The translations under genes and the position numbers were made by a program. Below the pieces are notes generated by a model. It was given only the letters and a program-made list of their open reading frames with translations. It was not told where the DNA came from and did no database searches. Below, in pieces: positions 21,702-34,869 of a stretch of 64,000 bases of DNA (within the stretch, counting starts at the first letter, position 1; every line of letters begins with the position of its first letter). Origin of the DNA: Burkholderia diffusa (GTDB lineage: Bacteria > Pseudomonadota > Gammaproteobacteria > Burkholderiales > Burkholderiaceae); contig NZ_CP013362.1 in assembly GCF_001718315.1 (NCBI RefSeq), positions 1,488,001-1,552,000 on the forward strand, read 5' to 3'.

Positions 21702-21846
21702 TCGTGGTTTTCCGGCAAACGGCGCCCTTCAAACGTCAATTCCGGTCAAATTCTCGCGATCTCAGGGTATTTTCGGATTTGTCTTATGTTCATGGTTGAG
21801 GGCAATCGATATCGTTGAGTCATGGTTCCTAAGGCTGGAGATGTCC

Positions 21847-22257
21847 ATGACACCGTATCGCGATCTGACCGACCATGAGTGGCGCTGCGTCGTGCCGCTT
21901 CTGCCCGAAATGCAGCCGCGCACCGAGTTGCGCGGCCGTCCGTTGGCCAACACACGCGCCGTTCTGAACGGCGTGCTCTGGGTGATTTATAGCGGCGCGA
22001 CCTGGTCTGCGATGCCGCGTCGCTACCCTTCGTACCAGACATGCCATCGCCGCTTCAAGGCCTGGCACGAGACCGGCACGTTGATGCGGGTGATGCGCGA
22101 GCTGTATGGCGACGCCGGCGCGAATCTGTGCAAGGAATTGTCCACGCGGATGCGAAAGCATGCGCAGTCGAAGGCGGCGGAGATGCGAAGTGCCGCGGCG
22201 CCCGCGTATCGCCAGCAGGGCGGTCGTGCACCGGAATCGCTGAAGCACGCAGCATGA
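21847..22257 (+). CDS. Orphan IS5/IS402-type transposase N-domain protein (DUF4096-like)
   Basis: A 136-residue protein whose first ~75 residues match the N-terminal domain of IS5-family (IS402 group) transposases: YRDLTDHEWRCVVPLLPE, GRPLANTRAVLNGVLWVIYSGATWSAMPRRYPSYQTCHRRFKAW. The catalytic DDE domain is absent; the C-terminal half is Ala/Arg/Gln-rich and unlike transposase. No second reading frame with a DDE domain, terminal inverted repeats or target duplication was seen. ATG 21847 has GGAG six bases upstream and is preferred over 21841 and 21796. It is either a remnant or a domesticated DNA-binding protein; its intact frame and ribosome binding site favour the latter. Confidence 0.7.
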   Translation: MTPYRDLTDHEWRCVVPLLPEMQPRTELRGRPLANTRAVLNGVLWVIYSGATWSAMPRRYPSYQTCHRRFKAWHETGTLMRVMRELYGDAGANLCKELSTRMRKHAQSKAAEMRSAAAPAYRQQGGRAPESLKHAA

Positions 22258-22359: not shown

Positions 22360-22821
22360 TTATTGCGCGCGAACCCAGGTCTGCGACCGGCCGAGCAGCG
22401 ACACGCCGATGTAGCCGCGCACGACGAGCTTCTGACCACCGTCTTCCAGCGACATCTTGCACTTGTAGACCTTGCCGTTTTCCGGGTCGAGGATATTGCC
22501 GCCGTCCCAGTGGTCGCCATCCTTCTTCATCGCCTTGATGATCGTCATGCCCTTGATGAGCTGATCCTTGCGCTCGTCCGTGCATGCGGTGCAGCGGCGA
22601 TCGGGCGTGTCGTTGGCACCGAGGCCCTTGACGACCTTGCCCGACAGCGACCCTTCGCCGTCGTCGGCAATCTGCACGAGCGCCTTCGGCTGATGCGTGT
22701 TGTCGTCGATCGTCTGCCACATGCCGATGGGGCTGTCGGTTTGGGCGAACGAAGGTGCGGCGCAAGCGAGCAGCGCGCTTGCAATTGCAAGTGTGCGCAA
22801 CGGGCGGGTCAGTTGAATCAT
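22360..22821 (-). CDS. Secreted DUF2147-family protein
   Basis: A 153-residue exported protein. A signal peptide ends around PSFAQ (residue 25). The mature part has the DUF2147 pattern: PIGMWQTIDDNTHQPKALVQI, GSLSGKVVKGL, a paired-cysteine segment RRCTACT, GGNILDPENGKVYKCKMSLE and LVVRGYIGVSLLGRSQTW. The family is predicted to form a small beta-barrel in the periplasm; its function is not established. ATG 22821 is preceded by AGGAGGAAG, an excellent ribosome binding site, so the in-frame upstream ATG at 22875 is rejected. It is probably transcribed alone. Confidence 0.9.
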   Translation of the reverse strand: MIQLTRPLRTLAIASALLACAAPSFAQTDSPIGMWQTIDDNTHQPKALVQIADDGEGSLSGKVVKGLGANDTPDRRCTACTDERKDQLIKGMTIIKAMKKDGDHWDGGNILDPENGKVYKCKMSLEDGGQKLVVRGYIGVSLLGRSQTWVRAQ

Positions 22822-22987
22822 CGTCTTCCTCCTTGTTTCATGTCGTATTCGATGCGCCCGCACGACCGTCTGCATGGGGCGGTGGCATGTTGCGAGCTTT
22901 GCCAGAATACGTGAAACCGCGCGCTGCGTTTGATAGAGGGGACTCTAATCCAAACAGCCCGCGAGATGCGGGCTGTCTGAGGATCGA

Positions 22988-24673
22988 TCAGTTGAGCTGA
23001 TACGAGAACGCGGCATTCACGCGCGGGCTGCGTGATGCGCTTTCAACGGGTGCATCGCCGACCGGCTTCGCGATATTCAGGTCGAGGCTGTAGTAACGGC
23101 TGTCCGTAAACCGCACGCCGATGCCGACCGACGACAGGCGGCTCGGTGACGGCGTGCCGGTATGCAGATACACGCGCGCCATGTCGTACGCGATGTACGG
23201 TGTGACGGATTTCATGTACGTCCAGCCCGGCGTGAATCCGCGGTTGACCTCCAGCGACATCCCCCAGCCCGAGTCGCCCGACGTTTCGCCCGGCTGGTAG
23301 CCGAGCGCATAGCGCGTCGAACCGAACGAGATCTGTTCCGACGTCGGCAGCGAGTCGGGGCTGTACTGGCCGGTCAGCGAAACCGACGTGCCGATCTTGA
23401 ATGGCCATTCGTTGGTCTGCGTGAAGGTTGCGCCGGTGCGCACGAACGTCAGCGAAACGGGGCTGTCCACCGAGGTCGTGTTTGAGCCGATCGTGGTGTC
23501 CTGCGATTTCGACGCGCCGAGAATGTTGAAGCCCTTGGCGACGTTCACACTGAGCTTCTGCACTTGCTTGGCCGACACGCTCGTGTAGTCGAGCTGCATT
23601 TGCAGCACGCGGACCTGCGAGCGCGTGTCGATGCTGTTGCCGTTGAGCTTGCTCTGATAGCGGTCTTCGTTGTGCGACGCATAGCCCGACACGGTACCGA
23701 GCAGGCTGCGCTGGTTGTTCAGCAATAACGGATAGGATGCCGAAAGACCGAGCTTCTCGTTCTTGACGGTGCGCTCGACGGACGATGGCAGGCCCGGGTT
23801 GTCGGTCGGCTTGCCGCGATACGTACTGGCATCGAGGCGCGTGACCAGGCCGCTGCTGCCGACCGGCACCGAGCCGCTGAACGCGACGTACGTTTGCTTG
23901 TCGCGCCCGGGCGGCACCAGCGCGGAAATGCTCAGTTGCTCGCCGAACGACGTGAGGCCGTTCTCCGTCGCGGTGATGAGGCCCTGCACGCCCGGGTGAT
24001 TGAAGTCGATGCCGGTGCTGATGTTGAACGCCTTGCGGTCGACGGCCAACTCGAGCGTCGTCGCGCCGTCCGTCGTTTGCGGCGGCGGAACATTGGCCTT
24101 CACCGTCACGCCGGGCAGGAGGCCGAACGTGTTGACGTAGCGTTCGAACGTTGCGCGGCGCAGCGGACGATCGGCCGTGATGTGCGCGGCGATCGCGCGG
24201 ATTTTCGATTCCATCGCGCCGGGCTTGCCGGTCACCTTGACGTCCGACACGTAGCCTTCGACGACGGTCACGCGTACGACGCCGTTCTCGAACGTCTGCG
24301 CGGGAATGAACGCGAACGACAGCGCATAGCCGCGATCCTGGTACAGCTTGGTCACGCCGTTCGCGGTTTCGATCAGCTCGCCGATCGTGATGTCCTTGCC
24401 GACGAGGGGCGTGAAGCGACGGGAGATTTCGTCGAACGGCACCGACTTCACGCCTTCGACCTGGAACGTCGTCGGCGTCAGGTGGCGCGACAGCAGCTCC
24501 TGCAGTTGCGGTGCCTGCGGCGCGACCTGCACGGTGACGCTCGGGCCTTTCTGTGGTGCGTTGATCTGAGGGAGCGAATCGAGCGGGTTACCCGCCGCGC
24601 GCGTTTGTGCATGTGCCGTGCCGGCTGCCGCGATGGCGAGCAGCATCATCCATCTGTCGAGTCTGGATTTCAT
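22988..24673 (-). CDS. ShlB/FhaC-type outer-membrane transporter (TpsB, Omp85 superfamily)
   Basis: A 561-residue TpsB-type transporter. A signal peptide (MMLLAIAAAGTAHAQ) is followed by a Pro/Gln-rich linker, POTRA domains (about 70-230; FQVEGVKSVPFDEISRRFTPLVGKDITIGELIETANGVTKLYQDRGY and VRVTVVEGYVSDVKV are characteristic) and a C-terminal beta-barrel ending YSLDLNIAKPVGD. TpsB proteins secrete a TpsA exoprotein across the outer membrane. No TpsA-like gene with a haemagglutination/TPS domain is nearby; instead the two genes directly upstream on the same strand encode repeat-rich lipoproteins, the obvious candidate partners. The start has GAGGAAG upstream. Confidence 0.9.
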   Translation of the reverse strand: MKSRLDRWMMLLAIAAAGTAHAQTRAAGNPLDSLPQINAPQKGPSVTVQVAPQAPQLQELLSRHLTPTTFQVEGVKSVPFDEISRRFTPLVGKDITIGELIETANGVTKLYQDRGYALSFAFIPAQTFENGVVRVTVVEGYVSDVKVTGKPGAMESKIRAIAAHITADRPLRRATFERYVNTFGLLPGVTVKANVPPPQTTDGATTLELAVDRKAFNISTGIDFNHPGVQGLITATENGLTSFGEQLSISALVPPGRDKQTYVAFSGSVPVGSSGLVTRLDASTYRGKPTDNPGLPSSVERTVKNEKLGLSASYPLLLNNQRSLLGTVSGYASHNEDRYQSKLNGNSIDTRSQVRVLQMQLDYTSVSAKQVQKLSVNVAKGFNILGASKSQDTTIGSNTTSVDSPVSLTFVRTGATFTQTNEWPFKIGTSVSLTGQYSPDSLPTSEQISFGSTRYALGYQPGETSGDSGWGMSLEVNRGFTPGWTYMKSVTPYIAYDMARVYLHTGTPSPSRLSSVGIGVRFTDSRYYSLDLNIAKPVGDAPVESASRSPRVNAAFSYQLN

Positions 24674-24817
24674 TGTTCTTCCTCGTAGGCCTTGCTTTTC
24701 ATCTTCTTTCTAATGCGGGCGCGCGACACCAGGGTGTCGCGCGCCGCGTGCCGCATTGCCGGTTGTGTTTGTACGGCCGCGCCTCCTGCTCCGGCTGCAA
24801 GGGCGCGACCGTCCTCC

Positions 24818-26176
24818 TTACTTGCCAACGCTGCCCAGCGTACCCAGCAACCCCGTTACCGGCGCGAGGAGCCCCGTCGAGCTGCCCGACGACGCCGTCC
24901 CCGTCACACCGCCGACGAGCGACGTGACCGGTGCGAGCGGATTCGACGAAGCCCCGGATCCTGCTGCACCGCCGACTGCCCCGGTGACAGTATTCAGCAA
25001 ACCGGTGACGGGCGCGAGAGGGTTTGCACCGCCTGCGCCACCCGTTGCGCCGCCGAGCGCACCCGTCACCGTCGACACGAGACCGGTGACCGGCGCGAGC
25101 GGGTTGCTGCCCGAGCTGCCCGTTGCGCCACCGACTGCGCCGGTGAGCGAACCGAGCGGCGTCGAACCGAGACCGGACAACAGGCCGCCGAGCGGGTTGG
25201 TCGAGCTGGAGCCTGACGACGGGCCATTCTGGACGGTAGCCGTCGAGCCGCCGACGAGGCTCGTGATCAGGCCGGGGATCGGCGCCGCGCCGTTCGGGCC
25301 GTTCGGATTCACGAGGCCACCCGCGTTGGTCACGGTATTGCCGACCGCAGTGACGAGCTGGCCCACGTCGCCGACGAGCGGCTGATTCGACGTGCTGCCG
25401 ACTTGCTTGCCCGCCGAGCTGATCGCGCCGCCGATCTGGCCCAGCAGGCCCGACACGGGTTGTCCCAGGCCGGTGGTCGTGCCGACTTGTTGCGTGACCT
25501 GACCGGCGGTGATCACCAGCGGCGTGATTGCCGAACTGAGCGGCTGCGTCACTTGCTGCACGGCGCCCGACGACAGCGTCGAGCCGATCGTCGTCCCGGC
25601 GGCCGACAGACCGTTGGCGACAGTGTCGAGCACGGTGCCGACCGGCGACGTGACAGGGGCGAGCGGCGCGAGCGGGCCCGTGCCGAGGGCCTTGACCGTC
25701 GAGCTCAGGCCCGACACGGTGTTGCTGGTCGCGCCAACGACATTGCCGAGGCCAGCGACGGTCGTGCCGACGGGATCCTTGATCGAGCCCGTCTGCCCGA
25801 GCCCGTTGCTCAATGCATCGGCAGCCGCGTTGATGATCGTGCCGGTGCTCGAGACGGTGCTGCCGACGCCCTTCGTCACGCCGTCGCCGAGACCCGGCAC
25901 GCTGACGTTGCCGATCGTGCTGCCGAGATCGGTTGCAGTCTGGCCGAGCGTGCTGACAGCGCCCTTGGTGCCGGTGGACGAGCCGCTGGTGCCGCTGGTG
26001 CCACTCGTGCCGCTGGTACCGCTCGTGCCGCTGGAACTGCCGCCGTTGTTGCTGGACGGCGGCGCGCTGACGCTGTTGCCGCCGCAGGCAGCCAGCAGGC
26101 ACGCTGCCGCGAAGGCGGTGAGGGGCACGCGCCACTGGCGCAGGACGCTCGCGGTGATGGAACGTTGCTGGGACAT
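24818..26176 (-). CDS. Repeat-rich lipoprotein A (low-complexity Gly/Ser/Thr/Val surface protein)
   Basis: A 452-residue predicted lipoprotein: an Arg-containing N-terminus, hydrophobic stretch and lipobox LLAACGG at about residue 31. After it comes a linker with five Gly-Thr-Ser triplets, then a region rich in G, T, S, V and L with amphipathic blocks such as STLGQTATDLGSTIG. From about residue 330 there are roughly 26-residue repeats of the type NPLAPVTGLVSTVTGALGG. The triplet run is short and proline-free, so a collagen fold is not supported. It lies 144 bp before the TpsB gene and 40 bp after lipoprotein B, same strand. Function unknown; surface exposure or secretion is inferred. Confidence 0.75.
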   Translation of the reverse strand: MSQQRSITASVLRQWRVPLTAFAAACLLAACGGNSVSAPPSSNNGGSSSGTSGTSGTSGTSGTSGSSTGTKGAVSTLGQTATDLGSTIGNVSVPGLGDGVTKGVGSTVSSTGTIINAAADALSNGLGQTGSIKDPVGTTVAGLGNVVGATSNTVSGLSSTVKALGTGPLAPLAPVTSPVGTVLDTVANGLSAAGTTIGSTLSSGAVQQVTQPLSSAITPLVITAGQVTQQVGTTTGLGQPVSGLLGQIGGAISSAGKQVGSTSNQPLVGDVGQLVTAVGNTVTNAGGLVNPNGPNGAAPIPGLITSLVGGSTATVQNGPSSGSSSTNPLGGLLSGLGSTPLGSLTGAVGGATGSSGSNPLAPVTGLVSTVTGALGGATGGAGGANPLAPVTGLLNTVTGAVGGAAGSGASSNPLAPVTSLVGGVTGTASSGSSTGLLAPVTGLLGTLGSVGK

Positions 26177-26216
26177 GATGGACTCCTCGCTGTCTTGTCG
26201 ATGAATGGGTGTTCGA

Positions 26217-27905
26217 TTACTTGCCGTGCGTGCCGCCGAGCAGGCCGCCGATCAGCGACGTGACAGGCGCGAGCAGATTCGAGCCCGAGCCCGAATTCGT
26301 GACACCGCCCGTGGTGCCGCTCAGTGCGGGTACGCCGACCGTGCTGGTGACGGTGGACACCGCGCCCGTCACGGGGGCGAGCGGGTTGCCGCCGCCTGCG
26401 CCGCCCGTTACGCTGCCGAGCGCGCCGGTGACCGCGGAGACCAGGCCCGTAACCGGGGAGAGCGGGCCGCTGCTGCCGCCGGCTACGCCGCCGAGCGCAC
26501 CGGTGACGGTGGAGACGAGGCCGGTAACCGGGGCGAGTGGGCTGCCGCTGGTGCCGCCGGCTGCGCCGCCGAGTGCGCCGGTGACGGTCGAGAGGAGGCC
26601 GGTCACCGGGGCGAGCGGACCGCCGCTGGTGCCGCCTGCTGCGCCGCCGAGTGCGCCGGTGACGGTCGAGACGAGGCCGGTAACCGGAGCGAGTGGGCCG
26701 CCGCTGGTGCCGCCCGCTGCACCGCCGAGCGTGCCGGTGAGGCCGGAGACGAGGCCGGTGACCGGGGCGAGCGGGCCGCCGCTCGCGCCGCCCGTTGCGC
26801 CGCCGAGCGTGCCGGTGACCGTCGTGAGGAGACCCGTGAGCGGCGCGAGCGGGTTGGTCGTGCCGCCGGTGCCGCCCGTGAGCAGGCCGCCGACAGACTT
26901 CACGGTATTGCCGGCCGACGAGACGGTGTTGCCGAGGCCGGTCGTGACGGGGTTGCCGCCCGTCGATGCGATCAGCGCGCCGCCCTGGTTGAGGCCGTTG
27001 CCGATCGTGCCGAGCAGCATGTTGACCGGGGCGCCGAGGCCGGTGGCTGTCCCGATCGTCTGCGTGGTCTGACCGACCATCGTCGTGATCGGCGTGATCG
27101 CCGAGCTGACCGTCTGCGTGACCTGCTGGATCGGACCGGTCGACAACACGTTGGTCAGCGTGGTGCCGCCGTTCGATACGGCATTGCCGACTTGCGAGAC
27201 GAGGCCGCCGACGGCACCGGTGACCGGAGCGAGCGGCGACAGCGGGCCGCTGCCGAGACTCGTGACCAGATTGCCGGTCTGCGTGACTGCGCCGCCGAGC
27301 TCGTTCACCACGCCGCCGGTGCTGGCGACCGTGACGCCGACCGGGTCCTTCGTCGCGCCGAGCTGGCCGAGGCCGCTGCCGAGGCCACTGCCGAGCGCCG
27401 TTACCGCACCGCCGACGTTCTGCACGATGCCGCCTGCTGCTTGCGTCGTCGCCGGGTTGACGCCGGGCAACGACTGGCCGGCGACCATGGAGCCGAGGCC
27501 GGATACGGTGCCGCCGAGATTCGTGATGACATTGCTGCTGCTTGCGAGGACGGTTCCCACCGCATTCGACGACACACCGGAGGTGCCGCTCGTGCCGCTG
27601 CTCGTTCCGCTCGTCGTTCCGCTGGTGCTGCCGCTCGTCGAACCACTCGTCGAGCCGCTCGTGCTGCCGCTGGTCGAGCCGCTGGTGCTACCGGACGTGC
27701 CGCCGCTCGTCGAACCGGACGTGCCGCCCGAGGTGCCGCCGCCCGACGTGGAGATCGAATCGCCACCCCCGGAGCTGGAGCCGCCGCTGAGCCCCTTGCT
27801 GATGGAACCGGAACCGCCGCACGCGGAGAGGGAAAGCATGGCTGCCACGGTGGCCGCGATCATAGTCGTCCGGAGCATGCCATGAGGGATAACCTGAATG
27901 TCCAT
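26217..27905 (-). CDS. Repeat-rich lipoprotein B with 26-residue tandem repeats
   Basis: A 562-residue predicted lipoprotein paralogous to lipoprotein A. The signal has lipobox SLSACGG near residue 29. A Gly/Ser region follows, then a tetrapeptide run (G-S-T-S type, about residues 50-105). A middle domain resembling lipoprotein A comes next (VGTVLASSSNVITNLGG, TGPIQQVTQTVSSAITPITTM). Seven tandem copies of a ~26-residue unit (PLAPVTGLVSTVTGALGGAAGG) then lead to a short tail. The start ATG has GAGGACGAA upstream. It is first in a probable three-gene operon with lipoprotein A and the TpsB transporter. The function is unknown; an exposed structural or adhesive role is a guess from composition. 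Confidence 0.75.
   Translation of the reverse strand: MDIQVIPHGMLRTTMIAATVAAMLSLSACGGSGSISKGLSGGSSSGGGDSISTSGGGTSGGTSGSTSGGTSGSTSGSTSGSTSGSTSGSTSGSTSGTTSGTSSGTSGTSGVSSNAVGTVLASSSNVITNLGGTVSGLGSMVAGQSLPGVNPATTQAAGGIVQNVGGAVTALGSGLGSGLGQLGATKDPVGVTVASTGGVVNELGGAVTQTGNLVTSLGSGPLSPLAPVTGAVGGLVSQVGNAVSNGGTTLTNVLSTGPIQQVTQTVSSAITPITTMVGQTTQTIGTATGLGAPVNMLLGTIGNGLNQGGALIASTGGNPVTTGLGNTVSSAGNTVKSVGGLLTGGTGGTTNPLAPLTGLLTTVTGTLGGATGGASGGPLAPVTGLVSGLTGTLGGAAGGTSGGPLAPVTGLVSTVTGALGGAAGGTSGGPLAPVTGLLSTVTGALGGAAGGTSGSPLAPVTGLVSTVTGALGGVAGGSSGPLSPVTGLVSAVTGALGSVTGGAGGGNPLAPVTGAVSTVTSTVGVPALSGTTGGVTNSGSGSNLLAPVTSLIGGLLGGTHGK
26330..26860 (-). repeat. Seven coding tandem repeats of about 78 bp
   Basis: This DNA encodes the PLAPVTG-type units of lipoprotein B. 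Central copies are nearly identical at protein level (AGGTSGG spacers recur), outer ones are degenerate, a pattern expected from slippage or unequal recombination. All copies keep the frame. Confidence 0.8.
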
Positions 27906-28736: not shown

Positions 28737-28816
28737 CCCTTGCAGTGCGTTGGGGGCGAGCGAGCCGCGGTTGCGGCTCGCTCGCCGTTACATGGGCATG
28801 CGCAGTCGATCGCGAT

Positions 28817-29317
28817 ATGGCACATCTCATCAGCACCAGCATTTTTCTTGCTTGGGCCGCCCTTGTTGCTGCCGGTGATATTCGATTTCGGCTTGTCCGG
28901 AATTCGCTTGTCATCTGCGGAGGTATTGCTGCACTCGTCAGTTCACTGATAAACGCAAATCCATTCGGTATCTCAATCGAGCAGGCATTGATCGGCGCGC
29001 TGGTTGGTTTGGTCAGCTTCTTTCCGCTTTTTGCGATGCGCGTCATGGGGGCGGCAGACGTCAAGGTATTCGCGGTTCTCGGCGCGTGGTGCGGTTTACC
29101 GATATTGCTGCGGTTGTGGGTCATTGCCAGCCTTGTCGCCGGATTACACGTCCTTGGACTGATGTTGTTCACGCACACGTCGCTCGGTGCGTTATGGGGG
29201 CGTGGAGTCCCGACAATGATGCTCGGCGGCCGGCGCTCGACACCGTACGCGGCGTGTCTCGTCGTTCCCGCGGCAATTTGGCTGTGCTATCTGGTCGTTA
29301 CCTGGAGCGGGAGATGA
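28817..29317 (+). CDS. tadV: Flp prepilin peptidase (TadV/CpaA, A24 family)
   Basis: A 166-residue integral membrane aspartic peptidase. The two catalytic aspartates expected in A24 enzymes are visible in GDIRFRLVRNSL (first loop) and GAADVKVFAVLGAW (second loop). Five to six hydrophobic helices are seen. The short form without a methylase domain is typical of tad loci. It would cleave Flp and the TadE/TadG pseudopilins. The ATG at 28817 gives the standard N-terminus although its ribosome binding site is weak; the frame is open to 28745. Its stop overlaps the tadE start (ATGA at 29314-29317). Confidence 0.9.
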   Translation: MAHLISTSIFLAWAALVAAGDIRFRLVRNSLVICGGIAALVSSLINANPFGISIEQALIGALVGLVSFFPLFAMRVMGAADVKVFAVLGAWCGLPILLRLWVIASLVAGLHVLGLMLFTHTSLGALWGRGVPTMMLGGRRSTPYAACLVVPAAIWLCYLVVTWSGR

Positions 29318-29784
29318 AACGACAGTATCGACCGGGCGCGCGCGTCCAGGAGCGTGGGGCGACTGCCGTCGAGTTCGCGCTGGTATTCCCGCTATTTTTC
29401 CTGATTCTGTATGCGATCGTGACGTTCGGGCTGATCTTCGCGGTTCAGCAAAGCCTGACGCTGGCCGCGACCGAGGGGGCGCGTTCGGCGCTCAACTATG
29501 TTTACGAGGCCAACGGTTCGGGTACGCAGGCACTGTCGGACCGGGCGAGCGCGGCAAAGGCGACGGCTGTCGGCCTTACTTCATGGCTGACCAATGTCCA
29601 GATCCCGACACCGGCGTCAGGAACATGCAGTTACGACCCAACCATGTATTGTGTGACGGTCACGGTTACCTATCCGTATCAGGCGCATCCGCTGGTTCCG
29701 TCTCTCCCATTGCTGGGTCTTGTCACGCCGACGAAGCTTACCGGCACGGCCACCGTCCAGATCAATCCGGCGACTATCCTATGA
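29314..29784 (+). CDS. tadE: TadE-like pseudopilin
   Basis: A 156-residue TadE-family protein. The N-terminus ERGATAVEFALVFPLFFLILYAIVTFGLIF is the TadE signature: a prepilin-like cleavage region with the conserved Glu followed by a hydrophobic helix. The remainder is a small periplasmic domain with two cysteines (GTCSYDPTMYCVTVTV) that may form a disulfide. TadE-type pseudopilins are needed for Flp pilus assembly, probably as minor subunits. It overlaps the prepilin peptidase gene by 4 bp, showing translational coupling. Confidence 0.93.
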   Translation: MKRQYRPGARVQERGATAVEFALVFPLFFLILYAIVTFGLIFAVQQSLTLAATEGARSALNYVYEANGSGTQALSDRASAAKATAVGLTSWLTNVQIPTPASGTCSYDPTMYCVTVTVTYPYQAHPLVPSLPLLGLVTPTKLTGTATVQINPATIL

Positions 29785-29872
29785 GCCGGGCAGTACGCAT
29801 AGCGGGGCACATGCACGCGGCGGTGTCTACGCTCGAACATAACTACATCAATCTACGGCACCGACATTCACC

Positions 29873-30781
29873 ATGGCCAACAACTTGACGAAGATCATCG
29901 CCGGGCTGCTGATCGCAATCGCTGTTCTGCTTGGGGTTTATGCCTGGACGCTTGGTCGCGCGCCGGCCCATCCGCCGGTTGTGGCAATGCCGACTGCGGC
30001 AGCGCAATCGGTGTCGATCGTCGTTGCGGCGCGTCTGCTTCCGGCCGGCCAGCCAATTCCGCCCGATGCATTGAAGCTCGCACAGGTACCTACGATGCCG
30101 ACGGGAGGGTTCAGTGATCCGACGGCCCTGGTCGGCCGCGTTCCGGCGAACGACATACTTGCTGCAGCGCCCGTGCTCGAAGGTGGATTGACCTCAGGAC
30201 TGGCGGATCAGGTGGCGCTCGGTGAGCGTGCCGTCGCCGTGAAGGTCGACGAAACGAATGCAGTCGGCAATCGGTTGCGGCCGGGCAACTTCGTGGACGT
30301 GTTTCTGAATCTGCGGCGTGACGGCTCCGGCGGCGCGCAGGCGAGCTCGGAGATTCCCGGTACGCAAGCGCGCCTGCTGTTGTCGAAGGTCCGTGTGCTG
30401 TCGTTCGGCGACGCGACCTCGGATCGGGACGGCGGCGGCGGACCGAGCGGGGCGGTGCGGACCGCGGTGCTCGCCGTACCGACGGCACAGGTCGATGCGC
30501 TCACGCTTGCCGAAGCAAGCGGCCGTCTGACGCTCGCGCTGCGCAATCCGCGCGACACCGAAGTCGCGACGCAAACTGTCGCGATTCGTACGGCGCTCGG
30601 TGATGCGACGCCGTCGACGCAGGCCGCAAGCGGCGTATGGCTGGATGATCTGTCGGGCGGACGAACGCGCGGTACGTCCCGTGCACCGGTTGCCCCGCGC
30701 ACTTCTGCTGTCATGGCCCGGGGAGGCGGTAGCAGTATTGAAGTCATTCGTGGCGGGCGTGCCGAAACGGTCGCCTATTGA
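29873..30781 (+). CDS. cpaB: Flp pilus assembly protein CpaB/RcpC
   Basis: A 302-residue CpaB/RcpC protein. One N-terminal membrane helix (KIIAGLLIAIAVLLGVYAW) anchors a periplasmic part with an SAF domain (about 45-110; SIVVAARLLPAGQPIPPDALKLAQVP) and the RcpC-type region ERAVAVKVDETNAVGNRLRPGNFVDVFLNLR. CpaB is an outer-membrane-channel-associated factor of the tad system. It follows tadE after 88 bp with no gene between and precedes the secretin gene, the standard order. Confidence 0.93.
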   Translation: MANNLTKIIAGLLIAIAVLLGVYAWTLGRAPAHPPVVAMPTAAAQSVSIVVAARLLPAGQPIPPDALKLAQVPTMPTGGFSDPTALVGRVPANDILAAAPVLEGGLTSGLADQVALGERAVAVKVDETNAVGNRLRPGNFVDVFLNLRRDGSGGAQASSEIPGTQARLLLSKVRVLSFGDATSDRDGGGGPSGAVRTAVLAVPTAQVDALTLAEASGRLTLALRNPRDTEVATQTVAIRTALGDATPSTQAASGVWLDDLSGGRTRGTSRAPVAPRTSAVMARGGGSSIEVIRGGRAETVAY

Positions 30782-30846
30782 CATCAACGTACGATCATCG
30801 ACAGCAGCTACGGAAGAGAGAAGGCCGCGCGACGGCCTCCGACACA

Positions 30847-32181
30847 ATGACAAACAAACTGATTGCATACGCGATTGCTATTTGCGCCATGGCCTTTGCC
30901 GTCCTGGCGGAGGCTGCCGGCACAAACGGGTCGATTGATCTTGCGGTCGGCTCGCAACGTCAGGTTGCTGCAGGCCGCACGCTGCAACGGATTGCGGTTG
31001 GCGATCCAGCCGTCGTCGACGTACTGGTCATGAAGGGGAGCCGTGCGGGTTCGGTGCTGCTGGTTGCGAAGGCGCCTGGTTCGACGAACGTTTTGTTGTG
31101 GGAACGTGGCCGTGACGAGCCGACGGTGTGGAACGTCAATGTCGTCGATGCGGCTGCTCAGGCGGTGCTTGATGGGACCGGGCCAAAGGTCAAGGCATAC
31201 GGCGGAGCCGCGGTCTTGTCGGGATCCGCGGCGTCGCTCGATGCGCATGACCGCGCCGTGACCGTGGGCAAGCGGATGGGGGGCAAGGACGGTGCAGTGA
31301 TCGATGCATCGACGGTAGGTAACCGGAGCGTGGTGCAGGTCGATGTGCGTGTCGTCGAATTCAGTCGCTCGGTGTTGAAGGAAGCAGGACTGAACTTCTT
31401 CAAGCAGAGCAACGGGTTCGCGTTCGGTGCATTTTCGCCGGGTGGACTGCAGTCCGTGACGGGCGGCGCGACCTCGGGCTTCCAGGCGACGGCCGGCATC
31501 CCGATCGCGTCGGCGTTCAACCTGGTCGTGAATTCGGCCGGCCGCGGCATCTTCGGCAATATTTCGATTCTCGAAGCGAACAACCTGGCCCGCGTGCTCG
31601 CGCAGCCAACGCTAGTTGCGCTGTCGGGGCAAAGCGCGAGCTTTCTCGCCGGTGGCGAGATTCCGGTGCCGGTGCCGCAGGCGTTGGGCTCGACGGCGAT
31701 CGACTGGAAGCAGTACGGCGTTGGTCTGACGCTGACACCGACCGTGCTGAACCAGCATCGGATTGCGCTGAAGGTCGCGCCCGAATCGAGCCAGCTCGAC
31801 TTTCAGCACGGCGTTACGATCAACAGCGTGTCGGTGCCGGCCATCACGACGCGGCGCGCGGATACGACGGTCGAATTGGGCGATGGCGAGAGCTTCGTGA
31901 TCGGCGGTCTGATCGACCGCGAAACGATGTCGAACATCAGCAAGGTACCGGTCCTGGGCGATCTACCGATCATCGGTGCGTTCTTCAAGTCTTTGAACTA
32001 TCAGCAGAACGACAAGGAACTGGTGATCATCGTGACGCCGCATCTGGTTGCGCCGATCGCGAAGGGTGCACCGCTACCGGCGACGCCAGGCGAATTGTCC
32101 GAGCAGCGTGACGGGCCTGTGTGGCGCTCGTATCTTGGCGGTATCGCGTCTCCCGACGCCGCGCCGGGATTTTCGAAATGA
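30847..32181 (+). CDS. cpaC: Tad outer-membrane secretin (CpaC/RcpA)
   Basis: A 444-residue secretin that would form the pilus exit channel. A signal peptide (to about AEAAG) is followed by the pilus N-domain (SIDLAVGSQRQVAAGRTLQRIAVGDPAVVDV), then the secretin core with VVQVDVRVVEFSRSVLKEAGL, LEANNLARVLAQPTLVALSGQSASFLAGGEIPVP, and the C-terminal signature VPVLGDLPIIGAFFKSLNYQQNDKELVIIVTPHLV. The ATG at 30847 begins the signal peptide; the longer frame to 30778 overlaps cpaB and is rejected. Confidence 0.95.
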   Translation: MTNKLIAYAIAICAMAFAVLAEAAGTNGSIDLAVGSQRQVAAGRTLQRIAVGDPAVVDVLVMKGSRAGSVLLVAKAPGSTNVLLWERGRDEPTVWNVNVVDAAAQAVLDGTGPKVKAYGGAAVLSGSAASLDAHDRAVTVGKRMGGKDGAVIDASTVGNRSVVQVDVRVVEFSRSVLKEAGLNFFKQSNGFAFGAFSPGGLQSVTGGATSGFQATAGIPIASAFNLVVNSAGRGIFGNISILEANNLARVLAQPTLVALSGQSASFLAGGEIPVPVPQALGSTAIDWKQYGVGLTLTPTVLNQHRIALKVAPESSQLDFQHGVTINSVSVPAITTRRADTTVELGDGESFVIGGLIDRETMSNISKVPVLGDLPIIGAFFKSLNYQQNDKELVIIVTPHLVAPIAKGAPLPATPGELSEQRDGPVWRSYLGGIASPDAAPGFSK

Positions 32182-32226
32182 CCGCACGGCGCGGCGTCGC
32201 GCGATATCGATTCGGGGGTATTCAAC

Positions 32227-33507
32227 ATGAACGCGAGAACCCTTTCATTGGCTGAGCCCGCCGTGAGCGACTATTTTGTATGCGCCTCGCACCGGGACGA
32301 GCATCTCCGCTGGCTGGGGGACACGCTTGTCTCGACCGGTACGGTGGAAGCGGTGCCGCTGGAGCCCGGCCTGCTGGCTCAGCGTATCCTGGGGCTCAAC
32401 CCGGCGATCGTGTTCATCGATTTTTCCCGCGCGCAGGCCGAAGCCAGTGCTGCCGCCGCGGCGGTGCGTCTCGCGCACCCGAGCCTGCCGGTCGTCGCGC
32501 TCGGCACATTGGCGGAGCCGGAAAGCGCACTCGCAGCGCTACGGGCCGGTGTGCGCGATTTCATCGACGTTTCCGGCAGTGCGGACGATGCTTTGCGTAT
32601 CACGCGCGGGCTGCTCGAGCATGCCGGCACGGAACCGACCAATCGCCACGGCAAGCTCGTCGCGCTGCTCGGCGCGCGCGCCGGGATGGGCGTGAGTACA
32701 CTCGCGTCGAACCTGGCCGTGTGGCTGCACAAGCGCGGGGCCACCAGCAACGTCGCTGGCGACGCGTCCGCGTTCGGGGTTGCAACGTCGCACGCGCGGC
32801 AAACTGCGCTCGTCGATCTCGGTCTGCCGGCGGGTGATAGTGCGCTATTCCTCAACACGCGTTGTGAATTCCACTTTGTCGAAGCCGTGCGCAATCTGCG
32901 CCGCATCGACCGGACGTTCGTCAACACGGCCCTCGCGCGACATGCGAGCGGCGTTGCGCTGACGACACTGCCGCCGAACCTTGCCGATTTGCGCGACGTG
33001 TCGTATGCGGCGTGCGTCGGTCTGCTGAACCGGCTGCGCGCATTCTTCGATCAGCAGATCGTCGATCTGGGGGGCTTTACCAACCTGGATTTCGTCGCGC
33101 AGATCTCGGCGGTTGCCGATGAGGCGTGGCTTGTCTGCGACCAGGGCGTCGCGTCGATCGTCTCTGCCGTCGATTTGCTCGAAGGGCTCCGCGATGCAGG
33201 TGTCGACCTCGGCAAGATGCGTCTGGTCGTCAACCAGTACGACGCGGCGCTGAGCCTAACGCCGGCGCAGATCGCAGACCGGCTCGGCATTGCGTTGCTG
33301 ACGACGCTGCCCGCGCGGCGTGTGTCGATCGGGCAGGCGGCGAACCAAGGGCGACTCATCGTCGACATGGCCGAGCGCGATCCGTATGTGCGGGCGCTGG
33401 AGCCGCTAGTGGAGCGACTGACAGGCACGGTGGCCGCCGGAAAGAGCACCGCTTCGGGCCTGTCCGTACTCAAGCGATTCATTCAACCTTCGTCCAAGCG
33501 TTCGTAA
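32227..33507 (+). CDS. tadZ: Pilus assembly ATPase-like protein TadZ/CpaE
   Basis: A 426-residue TadZ/CpaE protein with an N-terminal receiver-like domain (about 15-130) and a C-terminal ParA/MinD-like domain. The deviant Walker A motif is LLGARAGMGVSTLASNLAVWL, where the canonical lysine pattern of MinD (KGGVGKT) is altered: the position of the P-loop lysine is Val. TadZ proteins localise the machinery to a pole or site and several have atypical P loops. It starts 45 bp after the secretin, with GGGGGTA upstream of the ATG. Confidence 0.9.
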   Translation: MNARTLSLAEPAVSDYFVCASHRDEHLRWLGDTLVSTGTVEAVPLEPGLLAQRILGLNPAIVFIDFSRAQAEASAAAAAVRLAHPSLPVVALGTLAEPESALAALRAGVRDFIDVSGSADDALRITRGLLEHAGTEPTNRHGKLVALLGARAGMGVSTLASNLAVWLHKRGATSNVAGDASAFGVATSHARQTALVDLGLPAGDSALFLNTRCEFHFVEAVRNLRRIDRTFVNTALARHASGVALTTLPPNLADLRDVSYAACVGLLNRLRAFFDQQIVDLGGFTNLDFVAQISAVADEAWLVCDQGVASIVSAVDLLEGLRDAGVDLGKMRLVVNQYDAALSLTPAQIADRLGIALLTTLPARRVSIGQAANQGRLIVDMAERDPYVRALEPLVERLTGTVAAGKSTASGLSVLKRFIQPSSKRS

Positions 33508-33510
33508 GCG

Positions 33511-34869
33511 ATGGCACACGACATTCAATTTGCCGACGGCGCCGCGCCGTTCTCCCAGTCGCAACAGTTCCATGACATCAAGAATGCCGCGCACGAACAC
33601 TTGCTGACGCGCATCGAGGAACTGGGGGCCGAATTCGGTCGTTGGTCGCGCCAGGCGATCAACCAGTTTGTCGATCTTGAAATCGACAGCTTCGTGCGTT
33701 TGCGGCGCATTCCGCTCAACGAGAACGAGGTCAGGACGATTGCCGAGGCGTTGACCAAGGAGTTGGCCGGGTTCGGGCCGATCGAGGATCTGCTTGCCGA
33801 CCCGAATGTGGAGGACATCCTGATCAACGGCTACAACGATATTTACGTGTCGCGCCACGGGATCCTGGTCAAGTTGCCGATTCGCTTTACGGACAACGCG
33901 CACCTGTTGCGCATCGTGCGACGCATCCTTGCGCCGATTGGCCGGCGCCTCGACGAATCGAATCCGATGGTCGACGCGCGGCTACCGGACGGCGGGCGCG
34001 TCAACGTGGTGATCGAGCCGCTGTCGATCGACGGGCCGGTCGTGTCGATCCGGAAATTTCGCAAGGATCCGCTGAAGCCGGCCGATCTGCTCGGCAACGG
34101 CACGTTCAATGCGGAGATCGGCGCGTTGCTCGAGGCGGCGGTCGAGGCACGCTGCAACATCCTGGTGTCGGGTGGCACGAGTTCCGGCAAGACGTCGCTG
34201 CTCAATGCGCTCGCGTTCCACATTCCCGAGCCGGAACGCGTCGTGACGATCGAGGATACGGCCGAACTGTCGCTGAATCACCCACATGTCGTGCGCCTCG
34301 AAAGCCGGCCCGGCGGTTTCGACGGGACCGGTGTCGTGTCGATTCGCGACTTGCTGCGCAATACGTTGCGGATGCGTCCGGACCGGATCATCGTCGGCGA
34401 AGTGCGCGGCGGCGAGGTGCTCGAGATGCTGCAGGCGATGAACACGGGTCACGACGGCTCGATGGGGACCGTGCATGCGAGTTCGCCGCGCGAGTGCCTC
34501 TATCGACTCGAGATGCTGGCCGGTTTCGCCGGCTTCCAAGGTACGGAATCGAGTCTGCGCCGGCAGATCGCGAATGCGATCGACTTCATCGTGCAGATCG
34601 GCCGCCTGTCGAACGGACGGCGCCGGATCATGTCGATCACGGAAGTCACCGGATTGTCGGACAACATTATTGCTACGCAGGAACTGTATCGCTACGAGGC
34701 GCGCGTCACGCCCGAGGGCGAAGAGGTCGACAACTGGGAGTCGCTCGGCATTCATCCGCATTCGCCTAAGCTTGCACGCTTCCGTCAGACGCTGCAGGGC
34801 GGCTTCGGAGGGAATGGCGGCGGGTTCGGAGGTGGATTCGGCCGCGGAGGCGGGGGTTTCAATGTATAG
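33511..34869 (+). CDS. tadA: Secretion/pilus ATPase TadA (CpaF, GspE/VirB11 family)
   Basis: A 452-residue hexameric ATPase powering Flp pilus extension. The Walker A motif is [18 protein letters not shown] (about 223-235), with the Asp box [24 protein letters not shown], Walker B region [37 protein letters not shown] and His box, all intact. The C-terminus is a glycine/phenylalanine-rich tail ([20 protein letters not shown]), unusual for CpaF and perhaps flexible. It begins 3 bp after tadZ and overlaps tadB by 8 bp. Confidence 0.96.

Follow-up and report, generated by a model that had tools for sequence, protein, structure and literature searches.

The window analysed here is a 64,000-nucleotide stretch of Burkholderia diffusa DNA (contig NZ_CP013362.1, positions 1,488,001 to 1,552,000), and it carries on its minus strand an operon in which a gene for a TpsB/FhaC-type transporter follows the genes for two repeat-rich lipoproteins, A and B. 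We propose that these genes encode a system resembling two-partner secretion, with one clade of TpsB-type proteins (Omp85 superfamily) dedicated not to a TpsA protein but to lipoproteins with a Collagen_mid domain; from sequence comparisons we give this reading a probability of roughly 0.65. Its parts differ in strength, as a dedicated pairing of transporter and lipoproteins is very likely, and export of the lipoproteins by this transporter appears probable. In order of transcription the genes encode lipoprotein B (562 amino acids (aa), 26217..27905), lipoprotein A (452 aa, 24818..26176), the transporter (561 aa, 22988..24673) and a DUF2147 protein assigned by Pfam (171 aa, 22360..22875), the gene for which is likely the fourth member of the operon. 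The open reading frame (ORF) calls leave gaps of 40 bp between B and A, 144 bp between A and the transporter gene and 112 bp between the latter and the DUF2147 gene, in agreement with an earlier note on this DNA that had placed the first three genes on one strand with gaps of 144 and 40 bp. The genome measures 6.86 Mb in three contigs, with the window on contig 1.

Lipoproteins A and B share an architecture of lipobox, Gly/Ser/Thr-rich linker, a single Pfam domain (Collagen_mid, PF15984) and C-terminal PLAPVTGLVSTVTGALGG-like repeats. Their lipoboxes, LLAAC-GG in A and LSLSAC-GG in B, are clear by eye in the translations and, together with the domain, place both proteins among the Collagen_mid lipoproteins, or Burkholderia cepacia complex collagen-like proteins (Bcc-CLP), A being of BCAL1523 type by gene order and B of BCAL1524 type by order and length. 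In B, the linker repeats that follow the lipobox occupy 27593..27742, the Collagen_mid domain (E = 2.4e-66) spans residues 146-344 (26874..27470) and the C-terminal repeats, 6.7 copies of a 78-bp unit, lie at 26333..26853; in A the domain (E = 2.6e-64) spans residues 93-290 (25307..25900), all on the minus strand. Because no other Pfam family was found in A or B at E ≤ 0.1, both are without the TPS (two-partner secretion) domain PF05860 at that threshold, and the absence of this domain near the transporter, on which the earlier note had built, stands. It is likewise absent at E ≤ 1 from five upstream lipoproteins of other genomes. Counted on the precursors, A has 15 charged and 2 aromatic residues among 452, and B has 9 and 0 among 562; beyond the signal peptide, the lipobox Cys is the sole cysteine of each protein. 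The structure model of A is a helical bundle with disordered arms, in which residues 73-289 are helical and contain no strand, and a 3.65-residue periodicity in both Collagen_mid domains exceeds 300 shuffles, these having been scored on a coarser period grid than the real sequence. The partner is predicted to be helical and disordered, not a β-helix. A collagen triple helix was considered as the key to A and B and set aside, as A has one run of six G-x-y triplets and B none of six or more. The genome carries five Collagen_mid genes, three of them far from the transporter gene; a Collagen_mid lipoprotein of this genome at L089:4450-6636 has long (GTS)n runs, and its matches to collagen-like adhesin models fall short of the cut-offs.

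The transporter matches POTRA_2 (E = 3.5e-20) and ShlB (PF03865; E = 7.8e-20, 72 bits against a cut-off of 22.7). It begins with a signal peptide recognised by eye, and its structure model contains the two POTRA-like units and the barrel of 16 main strands that characterise a TpsB protein, with FhaC as the best fold match (VIA-align). Residues 1-56, where a plug helix H1 would lie, are modelled at a predicted local distance difference test score (pLDDT) below 50 with short helices only. The (V/I)RG(Y/F) motif of L6 reads ALGY at residues 456-459, so that in the alignment Leu457 (codon 23303..23305, minus strand) takes the place of the lid-lock Arg, and the Asp of the (F/G)xDxG motif on strand 13 is present (AYDMA). 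Since the domains and fold match but the L6 motif is altered, we call the protein TpsB-type rather than canonical. FhaC has a bond between its L6 Arg and the (F/G)xDxG Asp (PMC4490367), and the (V/I)RG(Y/F) motif is described as essential for activity (PMC5422565).

The pairing of transporter and lipoprotein was followed across genomes starting from Collagen_mid, which scored over its cut-off in 58 of 120 genomes of a family sample and 12 of 398 of a phylum sample, 65 different genomes including this one (G000). The transporter, sought in the other 64 with Pfam ShlB (17 genomes, all profile-confirmed) or with the window protein (47 genomes), was present in every one, at 66 places, as two genomes have two each. 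Fifty-eight of these 66 transporters are encoded just downstream of a Collagen_mid lipoprotein, a conserved order of the kind that the earlier note, with three genes in mind, had proposed to look for. A script that used some of the Collagen_mid matches put 56 of them no more than 6 kb downstream of one, including 3 in which the same-strand neighbour is another Collagen_mid match 830-925 bp upstream, and reading of the DNA showed that the transporter genes of G408 and G441 also adjoin a Collagen_mid gene, which completes the 58. Because it recurs in several beta- and gammaproteobacterial families, the arrangement goes beyond chance. Carriers of the unit include Cupriavidus metallidurans CH34, on its megaplasmid, and Paraburkholderia xenovorans LB400, in which the unit may be followed by a DUF2147-like gene. 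The number of Collagen_mid matches per genome ranges from one to five. In G442 (C32, C128) and G450 (C57, C66) there are two transporter copies with a separate Collagen_mid gene near each, which looks like duplication of the whole unit. In G456 the transporter gene (C10:2992-4646) lies in two frames, through a break or an assembly error, and the genome still has two Collagen_mid matches.

The search was also run from the transporter to Collagen_mid, with a profile (A1) built from 23 transporters and at most three candidates scored per genome. Within the phylum sample the 12 Collagen_mid genomes, most of which contributed rows to the profile, were exactly those with an A1 score of 628 bits or above; G358 scored 497 bits, and no other genome more than 236. 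G358 is an instructive exception: it has no Pfam Collagen_mid match, but it encodes a 626-aa lipoprotein (LIGC) with LAPVT repeats and a strong periodicity of 3.6 residues, which ends 40 bp ahead of the first point at which the transporter could start. A class sample of 369 genomes, independent of A1 for its two new genomes, has Collagen_mid over the cut-off in three (G000, G658 and G853), and in these three alone does the transporter score reach 370 bits, with 275 as the next value; in G658 and G853 the two genes adjoin on the same strand. After its transporter gene, G658 encodes a second protein rich in Gly/Ser/Thr, of 325 aa and without an NCBIfam match (L211:2442-3419). In the family sample the transporter (E ≤ 1e-40) was found in 59 of the 120 genomes, against 58 with Collagen_mid. 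Fisher test p-values come out too small because the genomes are related, and nothing here rests on them.

Searches with the transporter also gave eighty named loci, which are not independent because they come from Burkholderia, Paraburkholderia, Caballeronia or an unassigned Burkholderiales, and which were counted by script without one-by-one checks: a Collagen_mid ORF lies upstream on the same strand in 79, the last ending with its contig, and a DUF2147 ORF lies 3' of the transporter in 76. The lipobox script flagged 111 of the 140 Collagen_mid ORFs of these loci; by eye, 28 of the 29 that it missed show an A-C-G lipobox, and the remaining one begins where its contig ends. DUF2147 genes of genus g5 were seen near Collagen_mid genes (L086:2851-3420, L095:11231-12393), and none was found in the three stretches read around transporters of that genus that are unlinked to Collagen_mid. 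The neighbours of thirteen other TpsBs, which score 177-275 bits with A1, were also read and assessed solely on their length, their N-terminus and their content of Gly, Ser and Thr; a long TpsA-like ORF lies alongside eight (L184-L188, L192, L214, L215), and none is among the listed ORFs of the other five (L189, L190, L191, L213, L216).

Transporters of this type number 26 in a maximum-likelihood tree of 60 proteins, and they make up one side of a branch with support of 100/100, a split that recurs in every one of 200 bootstrap trees. The remaining 34 proteins are TpsBs, of which 22 come from Collagen_mid genomes. A second tree (short search, mixture model) with 14 more members separates 40 from 34 with support of 100, and both trees carry a warning of long branches among the other TpsBs. 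The nearest named matches of the transporter, at 97-98%, are from B. territorii, B. ambifaria, B. latens and other Burkholderia, and protein searches name relatives in Pseudomonas and in Enterobacterales (Rahnella, Yersinia, Erwinia, Cedecea, Kluyvera), gene neighbours having been read for the query-giving genomes G146 and G372. Across 24 loci the distances between transporters correlate with those between the nearest Collagen_mid domains (Spearman 0.70; none of 2000 permutations as high). Among the 125 beta-type members, many of which are closely related, 124 have Leu, Gln, Ala or Met in place of the lid-lock Arg; the remaining one, G358, retains it, as do all 38 gammaproteobacterial members and 30 of the 34 other TpsBs. 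The Asp of (F/G)xDxG is retained in 160 of the 163 members aligned. By parsimony, loss of the Arg would have arisen inside the clade after the pairing with lipoproteins and would not define the clade.

A dedicated TpsA encoded elsewhere, the case that the earlier note had set against its own proposal, was sought in this genome and not found. The three TPS-domain hits lie on contigs C2 and C3, not on the contig of the operon, and each has another TpsB on the same contig within 26 kb: adjacent to the hit at C3:410449, about 14 kb from that at C3:161860, with a truncated ShlB piece between, and about 25 kb from that at C2:1643425, where other genes intervene and pairing is not proven. At L094 (G000:C3:171556-172629) a truncated ShlB-type gene stands between a 3051-aa TpsA-like ORF and a full TpsB.

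Several known systems resemble this one in part. Unlike in type Vb two-partner secretion (FhaB-FhaC, CdiA-CdiB), the partner here is without a TPS domain, is a lipoprotein and is predicted to be helical and disordered, the L6 motif (V/I)RG(Y/F) is replaced by ALGY and a DUF2147 gene often follows. The lipobox of NalP and SphB1 sits on a one-chain autotransporter with its own barrel, whereas here it sits on a separate partner protein. BamA (for RcsF) and Slam illustrate an outer-membrane barrel that is thought to aid a lipoprotein to the surface; the barrel here, in contrast, is TpsB-type, has two POTRA-like units and is co-inherited with its lipoproteins. NalP and SphB1 are, as here, type V proteins with a lipobox, and their final anchor site is described as unsettled (PMC8151025). 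With the Bcc-CLP operon of B. cenocepacia (PF15984) the present locus shares the order BCAL1524, 1523, 1522, 1520, the domain and the lipoprotein nature of its partners (PMC10224339).

The operon itself is already known, and what is added here is the pairing conserved across families. BCAL1523 and BCAL1524 of the B. cenocepacia operon BCAL1524-1520 are described as collagen-like lipoproteins, the genes of which may form one operon with BCAL1522 and BCAL1520, and BCAL1522 is tabulated as a 'Putative Exported Heme Utilization-Related Protein' (PMC10224339). Quorum-sensing mutants show changes in several genes of this operon and of the Flp pilus operon next to it (PMC2753556), and contact with host-derived membrane vesicles induces BCAL1520, 1523 and 1524 along with pilus genes (PMC7970998). 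BCAL1524 is found in outer-membrane vesicles and has a part in auto-aggregation and in Galleria infection (PMC10303873). No link that makes BCAL1522 the exporter of the lipoproteins was found in the passages cited here or among the listed titles and abstract beginnings, which for most searches of the open-licence literature covered a part of the hits.

The conserved pairing, the lipobox, the position of Collagen_mid beside a linker and a composition suited to threading together suggest recognition in the periplasm with the repeats passed outward. The lipoproteins would cross the inner membrane, be lipidated at the lipobox Cys and reach the outer membrane; the POTRA domains would recognise the helical Collagen_mid domain in the periplasm, where the flexible Gly/Ser/Thr linker would set it apart, and the disordered, low-charge, cysteine-free repeat part would thread out through the barrel. 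The N-terminal lipid would keep the protein cell-bound, and the surface material would aid aggregation of the cells. We infer recognition, the direction of threading, surface exposure and the final leaflet of the lipid from these features. As three further Collagen_mid lipoproteins are encoded far from the transporter, one transporter may serve five. In its widest form the proposal is of a distinct 'lipoprotein two-partner system' that branches off within type V secretion: a beta- and gammaproteobacterial clade of TpsB-type proteins would export lipid-anchored, helical and disordered repeat proteins, the beta-type members would have dropped the lid-lock Arg, and translocation would depend neither on β-helix folding nor on the L6 salt bridge; we regard this wider form as an even bet.

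A number of observations weigh against the proposed system. With the L6 Arg replaced, the barrel may not act as a canonical translocase, and the presence of BCAL1524 in vesicles is no proof of surface exposure. Of this genome's five Collagen_mid genes, three are distant from the transporter. The remaining eight of the 66 transporters, all from genus g5, are unlinked to Collagen_mid although they co-occur with it, and no Collagen_mid gene was found in the three of these eight neighbourhoods that were read. The extra genome of the family sample, G505 of genus g5, has a transporter gene with an in-frame stop (C6:92234-93853) and no Collagen_mid match, as if the transporter decays without its partner. 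The agreement in the phylum sample is partly circular on its positive side because the A1 loci were chosen for their Collagen_mid neighbours, and the agreement of distances could result from vertical descent alone. Conserved order and co-occurrence nevertheless lend strong support to the suggestion of the earlier note that the transporter has non-canonical partners of its own in these lipoproteins; the roles of cargo or surface anchor that the note had offered for them are more tentative.

Were the lipoproteins instead periplasmic accessory partners, with an unlinked and unrecognised protein as the true cargo, they would resemble BcpO, which serves BcpA in contact-dependent growth inhibition (CDI) of Burkholderia. 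BcpA requires BcpO for its function, and BcpO is, depending on the species, cytoplasmic or a predicted periplasmic lipoprotein (PMC5422565); a lipobox is compatible with an anchor that faces the periplasm. The reported action of BCAL1524 on aggregation (PMC10303873) does not favour such a role. We consider this explanation unlikely, as all three TPS hits have another TpsB within 26 kb, albeit with one pair split by other genes, and a range of one to five Collagen_mid matches per genome suits cargo better.

It is about as improbable, and marginally more so, that the transporter is a variant insertase or flippase that puts the lipoproteins into the outer leaflet, or threads the linker alone, without secretion of the whole chain. 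BamA, to which such a function can be likened, handles the surface lipoprotein RcsF; the transporter, however, has only two POTRA-like units, finds its best fold match in FhaC and retains the Arg in all 38 gammaproteobacterial members, although an insertase is hard to tell from the two-partner-like system by sequence. Least credible is a mere neighbourhood, in which genes for surface life beside an Flp pilus cluster would share regulation and no mechanism. The joint response of the neighbouring B. cenocepacia operons in quorum-sensing mutants and the co-induction of lipoprotein and pilus genes (PMC2753556, PMC7970998) speak for it, but the pair is retained over several families, including Cupriavidus metallidurans CH34 and Pseudomonas-like genomes, both copies stand beside a partner in G442 and G450, and the genes co-occur where they are unlinked.

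Beside the operon, on the opposite strand at 28745-34869, lies the start of an Flp/Tad pilus gene cluster, the ORFs of which we take to encode a prepilin peptidase, a TadE-like protein, CpaB, a secretin and CpaE- and CpaF-like proteins. Near the other end of the operon a 153-aa ORF on the plus strand (21796-22257) resembles the N-terminal part of an IS5-type transposase. In B. cenocepacia J2315 a putative transposase, bcal1519, adjoins the equivalent operon (PMC10224339).

At the level of gene pairing, comparison of the genome sequences indicates that this variant of two-partner secretion is real and conserved. TpsA proteins are described as β-helical and as folding at the cell surface during secretion, and a TpsB-type clade for helical, disordered, lipid-anchored partners, if our proposal is true, would break the β-helix rule. 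It would also provide a natural test of the force that drives Omp85 translocation and of the need for the lid-lock Arg, and it would explain how lipoproteins annotated as 'collagen-like', one of which aids aggregation of B. cenocepacia, could reach the surface. The finding suggests that two-partner secretion may be broader than thought.

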